Shown: one piece after another, positions 19,078 through 25,801 of the stretch | Numbering within the stretch: position 1 is the first letter of the stretch | How the letters are laid out: every line of letters starts with the position of its first letter | Source of the DNA: Terrimesophilobacter mesophilus | Lineage (GTDB): Bacteria; Actinomycetota; Actinomycetes; Actinomycetales; Microbacteriaceae | NCBI RefSeq assembly: GCF_014200375.1 | Contig: NZ_JACHBP010000001.1 | Span: 1,302,001 to 1,366,000, forward strand | Direction: 5' to 3' | Length of the DNA stretch: 64,000 nt | Position numbers and translations under genes: made by a program | The notes under the pieces: model-generated | The model's input: only the letters and a program-made list of their open reading frames with translations | The model's database searches: none | What the model was told of the DNA's origin: nothing

Positions 19078-20076
19078 ATGGTGCCGAGCGACGATGACCC
19101 CTCTTCGACCGCTGTCCGGCACACTGTCGTCATCTGGGTCGTCCTGCTCGGCCTGATCATCGGCGCCTTCGCGACGACCGTCATCGCCCTCAACTCGAGC
19201 GTCTACAGTGCCGGCGGCTTCGTCAACTCGTACCTCGTCGCACTGCAACGACACGACCTGGCGGGCGCGCTCGCGACGCCCGGCGTTCTCGGCACGACGA
19301 CCGCGAGCAGCGAACTGCTGACGCCGGCGGCGCTCGGGGAGATCGACGACGTGAGCATCACATCCGATGTCGATCAGGGCGGTGGGCTCCACTACGTCAG
19401 CTACACGGCAACCCTCGACGGTTCACCGGGCGGCGGCACGTTCCAGGTGCAGCAGGGGGCCAACCGGTTCGGTGTCTTCTCCACCTGGTCGTTCATCCAG
19501 AGCCCGATGAGCGTCCTGCGCATCACGCCGCTGCACGATGCGAACTTCGCGGCCAACGGTGTCGAGGTCACGGCGAAGAGCGGCCCCAGCATTGCCGCGG
19601 CGTACCAGGTGCTGACACCCGGAGTCTTCACCCTCACGCACGACTCGGGCTACCTCACGGCGACGCCGACGACGGCGGTCGTGACCGCACCCGGCAGCAC
19701 GGTTGCGGCGTCGCTGGACATCCAGGCTTCGCCCCGCTTCGTGTCCGAAGTGCAGAAGGAGGTGGATGCCTTCCTCGACGACTGCACGAAGCAGCAGGTC
19801 CTGTTCCCGACCGGATGCCCGTTCGGGCAGGAGCTCTCCAACCGGGTCGAGAGCGTGCCCGCCTGGTCGATGTCCCGATATCCGGAGGTCACGATCGAGC
19901 CCGGCAGCGATCTCGGAACGTGGGTCGTGCCGAAGGCACAGGGCGCGGCGCACCTCAAGGTCGATGTGCGTTCCCTGTTCGACGGAACTCTCTCCACCTT
20001 CGACGAGGACGTCCAGTTCGCTCTCACCTGGGTGATGACTCTGAGCGGCGATCGTATCGACATCCAGGCCCAGTAG
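19078..20076 (+). CDS. membrane-anchored hypothetical protein
   Basis: 332 residues. One N-terminal membrane segment (about 16-38, VVIWVVLLGLIIGAFATTVI) followed by an outward-facing part: an NTF2/DUF4878-like stretch (FVNSYLVALQRHDLAGALAT), then beta-rich sequence with one cysteine pair (DDCTKQQVLFPTGCPFG). No catalytic motif seen. It is the last gene before the accessory island. Function unknown. Confidence 0.75.
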   Translation: MVPSDDDPSSTAVRHTVVIWVVLLGLIIGAFATTVIALNSSVYSAGGFVNSYLVALQRHDLAGALATPGVLGTTTASSELLTPAALGEIDDVSITSDVDQGGGLHYVSYTATLDGSPGGGTFQVQQGANRFGVFSTWSFIQSPMSVLRITPLHDANFAANGVEVTAKSGPSIAAAYQVLTPGVFTLTHDSGYLTATPTTAVVTAPGSTVAASLDIQASPRFVSEVQKEVDAFLDDCTKQQVLFPTGCPFGQELSNRVESVPAWSMSRYPEVTIEPGSDLGTWVVPKAQGAAHLKVDVRSLFDGTLSTFDEDVQFALTWVMTLSGDRIDIQAQ

Positions 20077-20397
20077 TTGGGACCCCACGGGGTTGCAACT
20101 GGACACTGCTGATGACGTCGGCTGCCGCGGTGCTCGGTAGACCAGAACCTTTTCCATCGACTTCTGCCCCAGGTCAAGCTTGGGGGCGCCGATCTACCCC
20201 TGGCGTCATGGCTCTAGAAAGGCCGGCGTGATTCACCGGCTCGCTCCTTCAACTCACTCGGATACTGCTTTGTCATGACTCTCATCGCAGGTCGCGCTCT
20301 CAGTAATGTTGCCCTACCGACGTCGGCGGCTCGGCCGCGCAATCGACTACGGCGACCTCCAGGCCGGCGAAGCAGCCGCCTTCATCTGGCCGACTGA
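20077..20397. other. gene-free left edge of the accessory island
   Basis: No complete gene. It contains a minus-strand stub of an IS3-type orfA (20214-20276) and, on the plus strand from ATG 20306, a 31-codon open stretch (YRRRRLGRAIDYGDLQAGEA and onward) that looks like the tail of a lost protein and ends at TAA 20399-20401, overlapping the stop of the HEAT gene. The remainder shows nothing I can assign. Confidence 0.5.
20214..20276 (-). pseudogene. IS3-family orfA stub
   Basis: ATG at 20276 opens MTKQYPSELKERAGESRRPF and stops. The first 13 residues match the invariant start of IS3-family OrfA transposase subunits (M-x-K-x-Y-x-x-E-x-K-E-R-A); the rest of the helix-turn-helix is gone. This is a short remnant, supported only by that motif. 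Confidence 0.45.
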
Positions 20398-20988
20398 CTA
20401 ACCCAGCGCCGTCAACGCTCGCTGTGCCTCCTTGCGCACCCAAGCCCGGTCATCGTCGAGCATCCGCTCCAGCCCCTTTCGTGCCCGTGGGTCCTTGAGC
20501 TTTCGCAACGCCTTGACGGCGTGGCCGCTCACCACGGGGTCGTCGAGCAGTTCAATGGCCACGCTGCCAGCTTCCGGCTTCTTCGAGCGCCCTAGACCAA
20601 GCACGACCATCTCGCGCGCCTTGCCGAACGACTCATCGAGAACCAGCGCCACCAGCTCCTCGAACCTCGCGTCATCCCACAAGACCTCGAGGGCGTTCCC
20701 GACCGTCCAGCGCAGCCCCATGCCGGTCTCGTCCTCAACCTGTTTGAACTCCTCGATGAGCGGTCCCGTGGCTGCTGGCTTGGCCCACGGAACACTCAAC
20801 GCCCTCACGATCTCGCCTTTGACCTTCGGGTCCTGTGTGCGCTGCAGGCCCGAGAGCAGCGCCGGGATGGCGTCTCGATACCTGACGCCCGAAGTTCGCA
20901 GATCGGCCACGGACTCGACCTCGTATCCCACCTCGGCGAGCTCCCGCATGATCTCGCTCTCGCCGGGCGCCGGAGCTGCACCCATCAT
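20398..20988 (-). CDS. HEAT-repeat protein, possible immunity protein
   Basis: 196 residues of alpha-helical repeats. At least three HEAT/PBS-lyase-like units are visible, for example AIPALLSGLQRTQDPKVKGEIVRALS, GSVAIELLDDPVVSGHAVKALRKL and ARKGLERMLDDDRAWVRKEAQRAL (each written here only to show the A-L-x-D-P pattern). Its ATG overlaps the stop of the 60-residue gene upstream (ATGA), so the two are coupled. HEAT proteins of this size are frequent last genes in Rhs and other polymorphic-toxin immunity arrays; an immunity role is inferred from position only. Confidence 0.75.
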   Translation of the reverse strand: MMGAAPAPGESEIMRELAEVGYEVESVADLRTSGVRYRDAIPALLSGLQRTQDPKVKGEIVRALSVPWAKPAATGPLIEEFKQVEDETGMGLRWTVGNALEVLWDDARFEELVALVLDESFGKAREMVVLGLGRSKKPEAGSVAIELLDDPVVSGHAVKALRKLKDPRARKGLERMLDDDRAWVRKEAQRALTALG

Positions 20989-21167
20989 GGCCCCACCCTG
21001 ATCGATTCGAGGACGATCCGCCCGGCGTTGATCTCAACCTGCAGGGTGCTGGAGAACGTCGTCGAGCCCCGGTGTACAGCGTGAAAGTCAAACCCTCCTG
21101 GCGAGCGCAAGCCGCGAAATCGCGCAATTGGCTCGTGTAGTTCAGGTGGCTGACGTTCTTCACTCAT
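20985..21167 (-). CDS. 60-residue protein, candidate immunity partner
   Basis: Short gene with a strong ribosome-binding site: AGGAGG at 21174-21179, six bases before ATG 21167. That site is itself the end of the decayed toxin frame, whose TGA (21170-21172) is two bases away. The protein (ending INAGRIVLESIRVGP) is not recognised and may be either complete or the stump of a longer one. Coupling to the HEAT gene by ATGA overlap puts it in a toxin tail - small gene - HEAT gene series. Confidence 0.6.
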   Translation of the reverse strand: MSEERQPPELHEPIARFRGLRSPGGFDFHAVHRGSTTFSSTLQVEINAGRIVLESIRVGP

Positions 21168-21169
21168 TG

Positions 21170-21548
21170 TCAGCCTCCTAAAGTCGGGCTGCCGTGGAGA
21201 GGAATGCGCTCAACTTTGCCATCACGAACGATCTTGACATATGGACCAGCGTGAAGAGGATCAACCTGCCCTGGCCACCCACCCTCGATAGAAATAGATT
21301 CGCCAGGCCGCTCGGGACTAAAGAAAGGCGTGGTTGGCCTTCTTCGCGCCGCCGAATCCTAGGACCCCACAAAACCCGGGACACGTCACTCCACTAAACC
21401 CGGGGCGATTCATCGCGTACTTCCGTGCGTTATAGCCGTCCCAACCGGCGATCGCACTCACGGCCTCGTAAGCACTATCCACCAACACCTGTGACGTCTG
21501 CGTCAGTTGCTACATACTGAATGTCGACAGCATCGCGAAAGCGAGCAT
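21170..21548 (-). pseudogene. decayed Rhs pre-toxin plus toxin 3' end
   Basis: Reading from ATG 21548 the frame has an in-frame TAG at 21510-21512, continues as QVLVDSAYEAVSAIAG, WDGYNARKYAMNRPGFSG and GFGGAKKANHAF, and hits TAG at 21318-21320. A shift of frame in the T-rich stretch near 21320 continues it as FSPERPGESISIEGGWPGQ, HAGPYVKIVRDGKVERIPLHG, ending SPTLGG at 21170. WDGYNARKYA matches WDGFTARKMA of the Rhs pre-toxin region at 22830. So this is a dead copy of an Rhs pre-toxin followed by a different toxin tip. Both breaks could in principle be sequencing errors, but two in 380 bases argues for decay. Confidence 0.65.
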
Positions 21549-21600
21549 GGCGATCCTCGATCGACGCACTGCCTTGGCCCCGATCTAACGGCCACCACTA

Positions 21601-21876
21601 CTATTCGCTACAGTCCAACGCGAACTGCCACCCGGCGAAATCGAACGCACGCCGAAGCCGATCTAGGACCTCCGCATGCGGCCGCTCGGGAGTGTCGGGC
21701 AACGAGCGAAGGTAGACGACTACTTCGTTCCAGGGCGACGACATGGCTTCAGCATCGATCCGAATATGGCCGTGTTCATCGCGATAATCGACACCCGTGC
21801 GCCCGAGCATCCGCTCCGCATAGCCGTCGGAAGATTTAACCCACCCGCGCCACGACTTGGTAAATGTCTCACTCAT
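21601..21876 (-). CDS. Imm74-like immunity protein
   Basis: 91 residues. The middle stretch HGHIRIDAEAMSSPWNEVVV and the end DRLRRAFDFAGWQF resemble Imm74-type immunity proteins (pattern hRIDsE...VVY...h..RhRRAhxFxGhxh). Its ATG overlaps the stop of the preceding small frame (ATGA) and has no ribosome-binding site of its own, so it relies on coupling. It lies inside the array of small genes behind the Rhs toxin. It need not protect against the toxin now at 22271; it may belong to a lost one. Confidence 0.6.
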   Translation of the reverse strand: MSETFTKSWRGWVKSSDGYAERMLGRTGVDYRDEHGHIRIDAEAMSSPWNEVVVYLRSLPDTPERPHAEVLDRLRRAFDFAGWQFALDCSE

Positions 21877-22055
21877 GGCGCGTCCAAAAAGTGCTGGACG
21901 ATTGGGTTGCCTTGGCGATATAAGATTGGCCCCTCAATTCGCGCAAAGACCGAGCCAGGGCGAGGAGCACCGGGCCCGAAGAAAACGTTAGCTTCTCCCT
22001 TTGACGTTATGAGACCACTTGCCCCAACCTTCAGCGGCTCGCCGGTATCAGTCAA
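21873..22055 (-). CDS. 60-residue orphan protein tail
   Basis: Open frame from TTG 22055 (overlapping the stop of the gene before) or GTG 22106, ending VFARIEGPILYRQGNPIV and onward at the ATG of the Imm74-like gene. Possible readings: a small intact gene, or the 3' end of a lost toxin whose immunity gene follows directly. The second fits its lack of a convincing start and the ATGA coupling. Not recognised. Confidence 0.4.
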   Translation of the reverse strand: MTDTGEPLKVGASGLITSKGEANVFFGPGAPRPGSVFARIEGPILYRQGNPIVQHFLDAP

Positions 22056-22278
22056 CGTCTCGGATTCGCGCTCTGGCGGCCGCCACGAGCTGGCGATAAT
22101 CCTCACGCAGAGGCTCGGTCAACACCGACTCCAGAGCCGACTCCAAGTTCCACAGCACCCGCTGCTCAGCCTGATCCTCGAACACCGCCGGCTGCTCACC
22201 AGCGCCCGTCCGCGCCAACCACTCGAACAACACCAAAGCCTGCTCGCGCGATAACCCGATCGAAATCTCGTCAACCAC
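22048..22278 (-). CDS. predicted cognate immunity protein of the Rhs toxin
   Basis: 76 residues (GTG 22278, with GGAG eight bases upstream; TTG 22284 is the alternative). Acidic and helical: LSREQALVLFEWLAR, FEDQAEQRVLWNLESALE, EPLREDYRQLV. Small proteins with this LVLFEWL...DQAEQRVLW...LE pattern are common behind actinobacterial toxin genes. It overlaps the toxin stop, as expected for a toxin-immunity pair. Colicin D immunity is likewise a small acidic helical protein, but no direct sequence relation is claimed. Confidence 0.6.
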   Translation of the reverse strand: MVDEISIGLSREQALVLFEWLARTGAGEQPAVFEDQAEQRVLWNLESALESVLTEPLREDYRQLVAAARARIRDVD

Positions 22279-23761
22279 CGCCAAGGCTCCCGTTCCTGAG
22301 CACGTTGGCGAGTTGATCAGGACTCAACTTCCAGCCGCTGACGAACTCACCATTGCGTAAGATGACGTTGAGTCTAGTCGACGAGTCCAGATAGTGCGTG
22401 ACCGACTGGCCTCGATAGGTGCCTTGGATCGCGCGCGTCCCAGCAGAGTTGATGTGCTGATTGAGCGCAGCGCTAAACTCAGCCGCATTCGCCTTGCTGT
22501 AGTTCCCCGCGACACCGAAGTCGCTCGCATGCTTGAACTTCGACTGCAACTGTCTCGGCGAGGTCATAATTATCCGACTGAAGTCGCCTCCAGCGTTTGC
22601 GGCGACGGTGACTGCTTCTTCGGCGGCCTTCACCCCGCGGACACCTTTCAACACCCCACCACCGGGGATCGCGAAAGTTCCTACCGTGACCAGAGTGCCA
22701 CCGAGGGCATGACCAGGATTATTTGCCCAGTCATCAACAATTGGTTTCGTGATCGCATCCCACACCGCCCCCGGACCAGCGGCAAACAACGCCTGCTGCG
22801 CCTGAGCCTCCGCCATCTTCCTCGCCGTGAAGCCGTCCCAGTCGGTGAACATGTCGAAGTTCTCCACCGTCGACTGCACCGTCGTGCACAGCACACACGT
22901 CATCCACAGAAGCGCCCCGATACCCTCAGCGATACCACCAAACATTTGAACCTGGAAACCCACCAACCACGACGCCCGACACGACACGTCCGGGCACTGC
23001 TGCAACGCTGCCGGAGATGTCGACGCCGGCACGGTGGTACCCGTCTTCTTCTTCACCCCAGAACTTGACGAAGCCGCTGGCGCATCACTCCGCCACTGCC
23101 CGCCCTGCCACAATGTCCCCGACGGATCCGACCACGTCGCCGGGTTGTTACCCGAATACACGTACGCATTGAATTGGGCCGGCAACCCCGGATCCAACAC
23201 CGGATCCACTGAAATGAACCGACCCACCGATTCGTCATAGTAGCGAGCACCCAACAAGGTCAGGCCAGAACTGGTATCACGCACCGCACCCAGGAACTGG
23301 TGACCACCAGACCCGGTCGCATCCGAACCCTCACGCACCGCCCCAAACGGATCCGAGAACACCCGCTTCACACTACCCGCAGTCCACACCGTGTTCGGCA
23401 CCGACGCGACCACCGACCCGTGCGCGTCACACACCAGAGAAGACACCCCGCCCATCCCCGGGCCAGTGCGCACCGCAACACTGGTGCCCCCGAACGAGTA
23501 ATACCGCATCGCCGACACCGACGTGCCCACAATCAGAATCTCCTGACCACCCGGCAGAAACACCCTCGTCCCGGCCGCGTCCGTGCGAACCAGACGCTGG
23601 CCGGACGCATCATAAACGTACTCACCGTTCTGGTCCGGGTCCCCCGTCACCGCGGACAACAAACCCTCGGCATCCCACGAATAATCTGCTATCGCGCCCG
23701 CCGCGCTCTTGGATGCGCGGTTGCCCGCGGTGTCGTAGGTGTAACTACTTGCCGTCGTCAC
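22271..23761 (-). CDS. 5'-truncated Rhs protein with colicin-D-like tRNase tip
   Basis: 496 residues from the first usable start (GTG 23761). Order: end of YD repeats (YTYDTAGNRASK, YVYDASGQRLV), Rhs core (about 160-212, LGARYYDESVGRFISVDPV...YVYSGNNPATWSDPSG), pre-toxin region (about 262-372) with two hydrophobic stretches, then a C-terminal toxin (about 400-496). The toxin keeps K408-x-K410-H411 in SKFKHASDFG, THYLD with H457, and S475-x-W477 in FVSGWKL. This is the residue set and spacing described for the colicin D anticodon nuclease, which cuts tRNA-Arg. The open frame runs back to the ctaG stop at 23837 without a better start, so the secretion-bearing N-terminal part is missing. Confidence 0.8.
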   Translation of the reverse strand: MTTASSYTYDTAGNRASKSAAGAIADYSWDAEGLLSAVTGDPDQNGEYVYDASGQRLVRTDAAGTRVFLPGGQEILIVGTSVSAMRYYSFGGTSVAVRTGPGMGGVSSLVCDAHGSVVASVPNTVWTAGSVKRVFSDPFGAVREGSDATGSGGHQFLGAVRDTSSGLTLLGARYYDESVGRFISVDPVLDPGLPAQFNAYVYSGNNPATWSDPSGTLWQGGQWRSDAPAASSSSGVKKKTGTTVPASTSPAALQQCPDVSCRASWLVGFQVQMFGGIAEGIGALLWMTCVLCTTVQSTVENFDMFTDWDGFTARKMAEAQAQQALFAAGPGAVWDAITKPIVDDWANNPGHALGGTLVTVGTFAIPGGGVLKGVRGVKAAEEAVTVAANAGGDFSRIIMTSPRQLQSKFKHASDFGVAGNYSKANAAEFSAALNQHINSAGTRAIQGTYRGQSVTHYLDSSTRLNVILRNGEFVSGWKLSPDQLANVLRNGSLGGG

Positions 23762-23836
23762 AGTCCTCAGGGTAACGCGACTACCGGGCCTGACGCGGTG
23801 GGCAACGCGGCCGCTACCCAGGATGCGACTGGCTTG

Positions 23837-25801
23837 TCAGGGCTGCTTCTGCAACTTCGCGAGCATGTCGTTGTAGTCGCTCAGTTCGGCGTCGCCGTCC
23901 CGGTCGGCCTTGCGATCGAGCCGCTTCGCCAGGGCCGTGTCGCTCCTCGCCCACATCACGACGACGGCGAGCGCAAGGACCAGCGTCGGGATCTCACCGA
24001 TGCTCCACGCGATGCCGCCGCCGGTCTGCTGGTCGACGATGGCGCTCGGTCCCCAGGTCCGCCCCATCGCGCCGTACCAGTCCGCGGCCAGGAGTCCGGT
24101 TCCCATCATGAGCGAAACGCCGAAGAACGCGTGGAAGGCCATCGTGGCGAGGAGCGCCAGGAGCCGCATCGGGTACGGCGAGCGATACGGCATCGGGTCG
24201 ACCCCGATGAGCGTCTGGACCAGCAGGTATCCGGTGATCAGGAAGTGCACGATCATGAGGGTGTGCCCGATGTGGTCCTCGACGGCGAACCGGAACAGCG
24301 GGGTGTAGTAGAAGATCCACAGCGAACCGACGAAGACGACCGCTGCCACGACCGGTCTCGCGAAGACCGACGCGATCCGGGAGTGGACGGCGAGGAGAAT
24401 CCACTCTCGCGCTCCACGGCTGCCATCCGTTCTCTTGCGGATCGCCCTCATGGCGAGCGTCACAGGGGCGCCTGGCACGAGGAGAACGGGAATCGCCATC
24501 CCGAGGGTCATGTGCGCGAGCATGTGCACGCTGAACAGGTACTTGTGGTACTCGTTCACCCCACCGTTCGTGATGTAGAAGAGGCCGAGGAGCCCCGCCA
24601 GGAACGAGATCGTGCGAAGAATCGGCCAGCGGTCACCGCGCCGATGCAGCCGCCACACTCCGGCAAGATAGAAGAACGCCGCGAATCCGATGATGACGAT
24701 CCAGAGGATGTCGAACTTCCACTCGGTGATGAACCGGATGGGGGTGAGCTCGGGCGGGAGCGATTCGCCGGTGAGGATGTACGCCGGTGTCGTCGTGACG
24801 CGTTCCTGCGGGATCGGGGTCCTCGTGCGGGCGAGCGCGGCGGCGACCCCGGACGCGATCCCCATGAAGGCGAGTTCCGCGGAGACGAACCACCAGAAGA
24901 ACCCGGATCCGGCGTTCTCCTTCTGTTGCATCCGCCGAATCAGGAATCGGCGTTGCACGGCACCGAACGTGCCGAGTGCGCCGAGCGCCAGCACCTTGAC
25001 GACCACGAGGATGCCGTACGGCGTCGTGACGAGGTTCTCCAGCGTTCCCACCCGCAGCGCGGCATTCACGATCCCCGACGCTGCGACGATGACGAAGCAC
25101 ATGATCGCGAGCGAGGAGTAACGGCTCAGCACGGGCCCGACCCGACCGCCCTCGAGTGTGCGACGAGTGGCGACGATCGTGAGAAGACCCCCGAGCCAGA
25201 TCGCCGCGAACACGATGTGGAGGCCGAAACTGCTCACCGCCTCGTCGTGACCCGATGTCCCCGCCGCGTGACCCTCGAGCGCCATCGGGACGAGCCCGAC
25301 GGCGGCGAAGATCGTGACGAACACGAGGGCGGTGCGGTTGCGCACCGCGAAGCACAGCACCGTCGTGATCGCGGGAATGAGTGTGGAGACGAGCGCAGCC
25401 TGACCGATCGGGATGTTGGTCAGGTAGCTTCCGAACAGCTGGCCGAAGTTGTCGTCGAACGTCACCGGCTGCAGGTAGACGCTCATGAACGTCAGGAACC
25501 CGGTGGCTGCAGCGCAGATCGTCCAGAACGCTGCTGCCCCGGCCGCGAAGTCCAGGCTCGCGTTGAACTCGGGCCGGCCGGCATCCATGGCGAAGCACAC
25601 GAGAACGAGCGCGCCGATCGTGCCCGCCGCCCCGATGTTGAAGAGCAACTGTGCGATCGGGAGCCCGAAGCGCACGACGGTGCCCGGGTCGGCGAGCTGA
25701 GGGGCATCCGCTCCGCCGCCGAAGCTCAAGGCCGCCAGCAGAGAGAGCAGTGCGACGACCAGCAGGAGGGCTGGCCCGGCGATCCTCACGAGCCTCGGCA
25801 C
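23837..25801 (-). CDS. ctaG: CopD-CtaG fusion, copper/cytochrome oxidase assembly membrane protein
   Basis: 654-residue polytopic membrane protein. The N-terminal half (to about 330) is CopD-like, with copper-resistance segment SSFGLHIVFAAIWLGGLLTI. The C-terminal half is a caa3-type CtaG domain with HKYLFSVHMLAHM, GHTLMIVHFLITGYLL and MRLLALLATMAFHAFFGVSL, whose histidines probably handle copper. The fusion is typical of actinobacteria. Start GTG at 25801; GGAGG is rather close, so a slightly later start is possible. The gene ends at a single TGA, after which the Rhs fragment continues in the same frame. Confidence 0.88.
   Translation of the reverse strand: MPRLVRIAGPALLLVVALLSLLAALSFGGGADAPQLADPGTVVRFGLPIAQLLFNIGAAGTIGALVLVCFAMDAGRPEFNASLDFAAGAAAFWTICAAATGFLTFMSVYLQPVTFDDNFGQLFGSYLTNIPIGQAALVSTLIPAITTVLCFAVRNRTALVFVTIFAAVGLVPMALEGHAAGTSGHDEAVSSFGLHIVFAAIWLGGLLTIVATRRTLEGGRVGPVLSRYSSLAIMCFVIVAASGIVNAALRVGTLENLVTTPYGILVVVKVLALGALGTFGAVQRRFLIRRMQQKENAGSGFFWWFVSAELAFMGIASGVAAALARTRTPIPQERVTTTPAYILTGESLPPELTPIRFITEWKFDILWIVIIGFAAFFYLAGVWRLHRRGDRWPILRTISFLAGLLGLFYITNGGVNEYHKYLFSVHMLAHMTLGMAIPVLLVPGAPVTLAMRAIRKRTDGSRGAREWILLAVHSRIASVFARPVVAAVVFVGSLWIFYYTPLFRFAVEDHIGHTLMIVHFLITGYLLVQTLIGVDPMPYRSPYPMRLLALLATMAFHAFFGVSLMMGTGLLAADWYGAMGRTWGPSAIVDQQTGGGIAWSIGEIPTLVLALAVVVMWARSDTALAKRLDRKADRDGDAELSDYNDMLAKLQKQP

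Follow-up and report, generated by a model that had tools for sequence, protein, structure and literature searches.

Behind main genes, orphan rhs-CT/rhsI and cdiA-CT/cdiI modules are found lined up in arrays, in which most of the orphan tips have no start signals and some members are broken by insertion sequence (IS) elements; an orphan immunity gene can be expressed and can confer protection (PMC3150448). C-terminal displacement is named by PMC2935791 as the way in which rhs genes diversify, selection of orphan Rhs toxin expression was reported for evolved Salmonella (PMC3967940), and Imm-HEAT was listed by Zhang et al. as an immunity protein of Tox-REase-7 (PMC3482391).

Analysis of the 64,000-nt window (the whole stretch of DNA analysed, to which plain coordinates refer) indicated that the minus-strand stretch at 21170-21548 is very probably a module of an orphan Rhs-CT/immunity array, presumably built by C-terminal displacement. 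The phenomenon is known and largely ordinary, and the locus is another instance of it. The features are as follows.

20077-23836, no strand: island with the whole array (flanking-gene tblastn against congener loci; junction sequences)
22271-23761, minus: headless Rhs ORF with RHS repeats, Rhs-associated core, pre-toxin and colicin-D toxin tip (PF11429, TIGR03696)
22048-22284, minus: probable immunity gene of the colicin-D tip, beginning at the toxin ORF end (role judged from position)
21876-21998, minus: tip B, what is left of the C-terminus of another toxin, within ORF 21873-22106 (68% identity to the end of a protein of locus L007)
21601-21876, minus: putative immunity gene of tip B, open (62% homologue in L007)
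21413-21508, minus: pre-toxin fragment ending WDGYNARKYA (resembles both other pre-toxins of the genome; codon usage)
21389-21412, minus: 24-nt terminal repeat, all that is left of an IS3-type element of about 1.33 kb (inverted pairs in five related genomes)
21356-21388, minus: probably the end of another IS (two contig ends of genome G605 match it at 84%)
21178-21336, minus: candidate tip C (...HAGPYVKIVRDGKVERIPLHGSPTL), an open frame that stops directly before tip D (codon usage neutral)
20988-21163, minus: tip D, the end of a Tox-REase-7 toxin with a truncation and a frameshift, including the "small gene" 20985-21167 (aligned to an Aeromicrobium toxin)
20398-20988, minus: HEAT-repeat gene, predicted immunity gene of tip D, open (PF13646; 69% identity to the NZ_CP045736 homologue)
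20204-20398, plus: C-terminal remnant of a convergent gene, also present behind HEAT in Aeromicrobium (tblastn 48% over 66 aa)
20238-20286, minus: stub of an IS3-type OrfA (13/16 aa and 87.5% of 48 nt against the own genome near 775.3 kb)

The locus resembled the arrays of PMC3150448, in which start-less toxin ends stand in a row with an immunity ORF behind each, some ends have no immunity gene and some are IS-broken. An Rhs core and pre-toxin with a toxin tip stood at the head (22271-23761), though headless, and was followed by start-less toxin fragments of unrelated families (tips B and D, with C unproven). A cognate immunity ORF lay behind B and D, in the order kept in the homologous pairs, and none lay behind C. 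Unlike in the described arrays, which are from Enterobacteriaceae, the host is actinobacterial and the Rhs ORF in front has lost its head as well, a frame of only 521 codons standing in the place of a full-length main rhs gene. The locus also shares with rhs C-terminal displacement (PMC2935791) that related pre-toxin sequence is followed by different tips; the difference is that displacement in the window is deduced from the array of a single genome.

In such arrays, recombination would line up toxin tips, each with its antidote gene, behind an Rhs gene. Displaced tips with neither a start nor an Rhs shell would be undeliverable and would decay as truncations, frameshifts and IS insertions accumulate. 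The immunity genes that follow them would stay open and, if expressed and protective, could still guard against neighbours with intact toxins. Broken toxin ends next to open immunity genes, an IS scar, and intact relatives of pairs B and D elsewhere were all observed. The points against the array reading were that no working main gene lies ahead of the array and that tip C has neither a relative nor a cognate immunity gene.

The pre-toxin fragment and the insertion sequence ends

The minus-strand frame at 21413-21508 read LTQTSQVLVDSAYEAVSAIAGWDGYNARKYA, with the motif WDGYNARKYA at 21413-21442 and, just 5' of the fragment, the TAG at 21510-21512 that the earlier note had reported as an in-frame stop. 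Compared with the pre-toxin of ORF 22271-23761, the fragment gave a protein score of 50, and with a second pre-toxin of the same genome (G000:C1:776434-777114) a closer match with a score of 74; in both cases 0 of 2000 shuffles scored as high. The DNA score against the second pre-toxin was 51, with a shuffle maximum of 33 (0/500 reached 51), and 10 of 10 motif residues were the same (87% of 38 nt; BLAST E 6e-6). The DNA score against ORF 22271-23761 was no better than chance in the shuffle test. Codon usage marked the LTQTSQVLVDSAYEAVSAIAGWDGYNARKYA frame, and no other at that site, as coding. The likeness was confined to about 23 aa; for the residues 5' of VDSAYE it was at chance level, being equalled by 8-30% of shuffles. 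The relic of a second Rhs pre-toxin which had been read on this strand was thereby borne out, and the Rhs homology expected of the translated pieces was present for the LTQTSQVLVDSAYEAVSAIAGWDGYNARKYA piece.

A chance resemblance, with the stretch being intergenic sequence and no Rhs relic, is extremely improbable. Tip C taken alone would fit it, having no relatives and neutral codon usage, but for the pre-toxin piece it is refuted by matches above all shuffles at the protein and DNA levels, and both neighbours (tips B and D) are proven toxin-immunity debris.

Homology to the second pre-toxin stopped at 21414, 1-2 nt short of the 24-nt IS3-type terminal repeat, TGAATCGCCCCGGGTTTAGTGGAG, which begins at 21412 on the minus strand. 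The toxin-tip turnover in this actinobacterium thus has readable breakpoints. The repeat was found in five related genomes (G137, G618, G019, G018 and G130) as inverted pairs about 1.32-1.33 kb apart, and in G137 the pair flanked a transposase frame of the kind seen in IS3-type elements. The full G137 copy has terminal inverted repeats around a DDE transposase while the window keeps one end, the family being assigned by inspection rather than by a model run. The adjacent 21356-21388 resembled two G605 contig ends, as expected for a second repeated element.

The pre-toxin is cut off by IS ends, with the tip frame at 21178-21336 sitting behind them. What the earlier note took for a frameshift near 21320 is a junction: the IS ends, at about 21356-21412, separate the pre-toxin from the tip frame, and a simple frameshift joining the two was ruled out on that ground. 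Since the pieces are joined across IS ends, a common gene origin is not required. It is nevertheless possible, and tentatively entertained at somewhat below an even chance, that one Rhs gene held both the pre-toxin and the HAGPYVK tip, and that an IS insertion disrupted it, most of the IS being lost later, as was the second half of the pre-toxin. The strand and order are as expected for this and the tip frame comes immediately after the IS ends; such a history would also fit the main explanation, as it touches module C only. Against it, both other pre-toxin copies run on for about 75 residues past the motif and these are absent from the fragment; a deletion running through the IS could thus have brought together pieces from different sources. 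Tip C is also without relatives.

The candidate tip C

The tip C reading HAGPYVKIVRDGKVERIPLHG was found in a different frame from the pre-toxin fragment, and its open frame was TTPFFSPERPGESISIEGGWPGQVDPLHAGPYVKIVRDGKVERIPLHGSPTLGG. No relatives were found in Pfam, NCBIfam, PADLOC, PDB, plasmids, phages, viral contigs or genome contigs, nor among 199 genomes of the bacterial family. Codon usage showed no preference for the frame, which was also the case for the proven tip B. No cognate immunity gene was found behind it. The unrelated tip which the earlier note saw at the end of the relic therefore stands in part: the open frame HAGPYVK...IPLHG is there and is a candidate toxin tip, while relatives and codon usage gave it no support.

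Two weak tip C family matches (L004 and L005) overlapped unrelated genes and looked like chance, a PHROG match was set aside as weak (E 0.065), and weak order-level matches of the 60-aa ORF were treated as chance. At 21164-21177, precisely where candidate tip C gives way to tip D, stood an AGGAGG followed by an ATG, as if it were the leftover start of a lost tip C immunity gene, which is unproven.

The headless Rhs ORF and the displaced pairs B and D

ORF 22271-23761 demonstrated a clear domain match at its end to the colicin-D-type Rhs toxin tip (PF11429, E 1.5e-21) and a match to TIGR03696 (E 4e-18). Its open frame of only 521 codons started within the repeats, and neither another Rhs core nor a full-length Rhs gene was found in the 2.41-Mb genome. 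The pre-toxin of this ORF, earlier taken as intact, belongs to a frame that is itself headless, with most of the Rhs protein missing. Unlike in colicin-D-type Rhs toxins, the N-terminal part is gone, so delivery of its toxin is only putative. The probable immunity gene 22048-22284 had a 46% homologue on plasmid pAO1. That homologue (L095, NZ_CP089294.1 9894-16091) lay amid small hypothetical genes and no toxin was seen near it, so that the locus may consist of immunity genes alone.

For tip B, the last 41 residues of a 289-aa protein in L007 were 68% identical to window 21998-21876, and the 62% homologue of ORF 21601-21876 lay directly 3' of this toxin relative. More homologues of the ORF were found in L008 and L009; all came from the whole-genome search only, and peptide patterns of the immunity gene found nothing in genome contigs, viral contigs or plasmids. 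The toxin family had no name in Pfam or NCBIfam. The region 21601-21998, absent from the earlier note, is on this homology a further displaced tip followed by a predicted immunity gene of its own.

The HEAT gene 20398-20988 matched PF13646 (E 9.9e-17), and its protein was 69% identical to a homologue on Aeromicrobium yanjiei plasmid p001 (NZ_CP045736), where the homologue lies directly 3' of an annotated putative toxin. This toxin is a Tox-REase-7 (PF15649, E 4.6e-18, measured on the intact Aeromicrobium relative, to which tip D is tied by alignment). It aligned to the window in two frames, 21163-21074 and 21086-20988; joined through an X, the two frame pieces showed 55% identity across 60 aa. 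Codon usage supported both pieces. The second half of ORF 20985-21167 was the Tox-REase-7 end and its first half was out of frame, in agreement with codon usage. At the DNA level the Aeromicrobium and window sequences were colinear over 853 nt (67.8%), the end of the convergent gene included; a toxin-antidote cassette is thus colinear with a plasmid relative in a different actinobacterial order. The convergent-gene remnant has an in-frame stop.

As in the Tox-REase-7/Imm-HEAT pair (PF15649; PMC3482391), a toxin end is followed directly downstream by a HEAT-repeat gene, with 55% and 69% identity to the Aeromicrobium pair. Unlike in an intact pair, the toxin copy is frameshifted and truncated on its N side, the first 31 residues of the Aeromicrobium toxin having no counterpart. 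On the strength of the intact Aeromicrobium pair in the same order and of the published pairing, HEAT is predicted to be the immunity protein of tip D and not the partner of the HAGPYVK tip. The earlier note had set the relic before a small gene and a HEAT gene; the HEAT gene is real, while the small gene is part of the frameshifted toxin tip. ORF 20985-21167 was accordingly ruled out as the immunity gene of the HAGPYVK tip, being half Tox-REase-7 end and half out of frame. The proposed tip replacement, with old tips moved downstream together with their immunity genes, would account for the displaced pairs B and D, with HEAT assigned to tip D.

The Aeromicrobium plasmid region (L074, NZ_CP045736.1 38760-51304) contained, besides the Tox-REase-7/HEAT pair, a barstar-family gene and a transposase, with repeated sequence preceding the cassettes, and looks like another toxin-immunity cassette array. 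A partial HEAT homologue (L077, G194:C148; 72% over 74 aa) near a transposase frame seems to be what remains of the same immunity gene as the window HEAT.

The island and the second pre-toxin locus

Genes matching 19078-20076 and the CtaG/CopD-like 23837-25801 were direct neighbours in 6 congeners on tblastn, and in the window they were separated by 3.76 kb holding the whole array, the convergent-gene remnant and the IS OrfA stub. The island was absent from this site in all congeners (6/6). Direct repeats at the borders amounted to a 9-nt match only, which is not informative, and no tRNA was found near the island as an integration site.

The flanking genes aligned to the congeners over their full length without breaks, which argues against poor assembly. 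Errors of assembly or sequencing in a working second Rhs module, mimicking the breaks, are very unlikely. In favour of such errors, the genome is one contig of unstated sequencing quality and the breaks in tip D are small; against them, base errors cannot produce IS ends or truncations and no Rhs shell lies ahead of the module.

Within the displacement reading, horizontal transfer of at least part of the array is favoured by the absence of the island from the congeners at this site and by the plasmid-borne relative of cassette D. The pre-toxin being headless and the island absent from congeners, any "pushing downstream" may have preceded the arrival of the island and taken place at another site. 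Retention of the island as an antidote bank against neighbours, with tip C as the end of an undescribed toxin family, is a rather unlikely extension; it draws on the immunity ORFs 22048-22284, 21601-21876 and 20398-20988 being open while every toxin part is decayed or shell-less. If the antidote genes are expressed, the locus would be a small case of immunity genes outlasting their toxins.

The second headless orphan pre-toxin of the genome (G000:C1:775372-777114; L002, L023) shared 84% identity with the window copy across 108 aa and had a different tip, apparently frameshifted. An immunity-like ORF lay behind it (775944-776393), with IS OrfA fragments close by.
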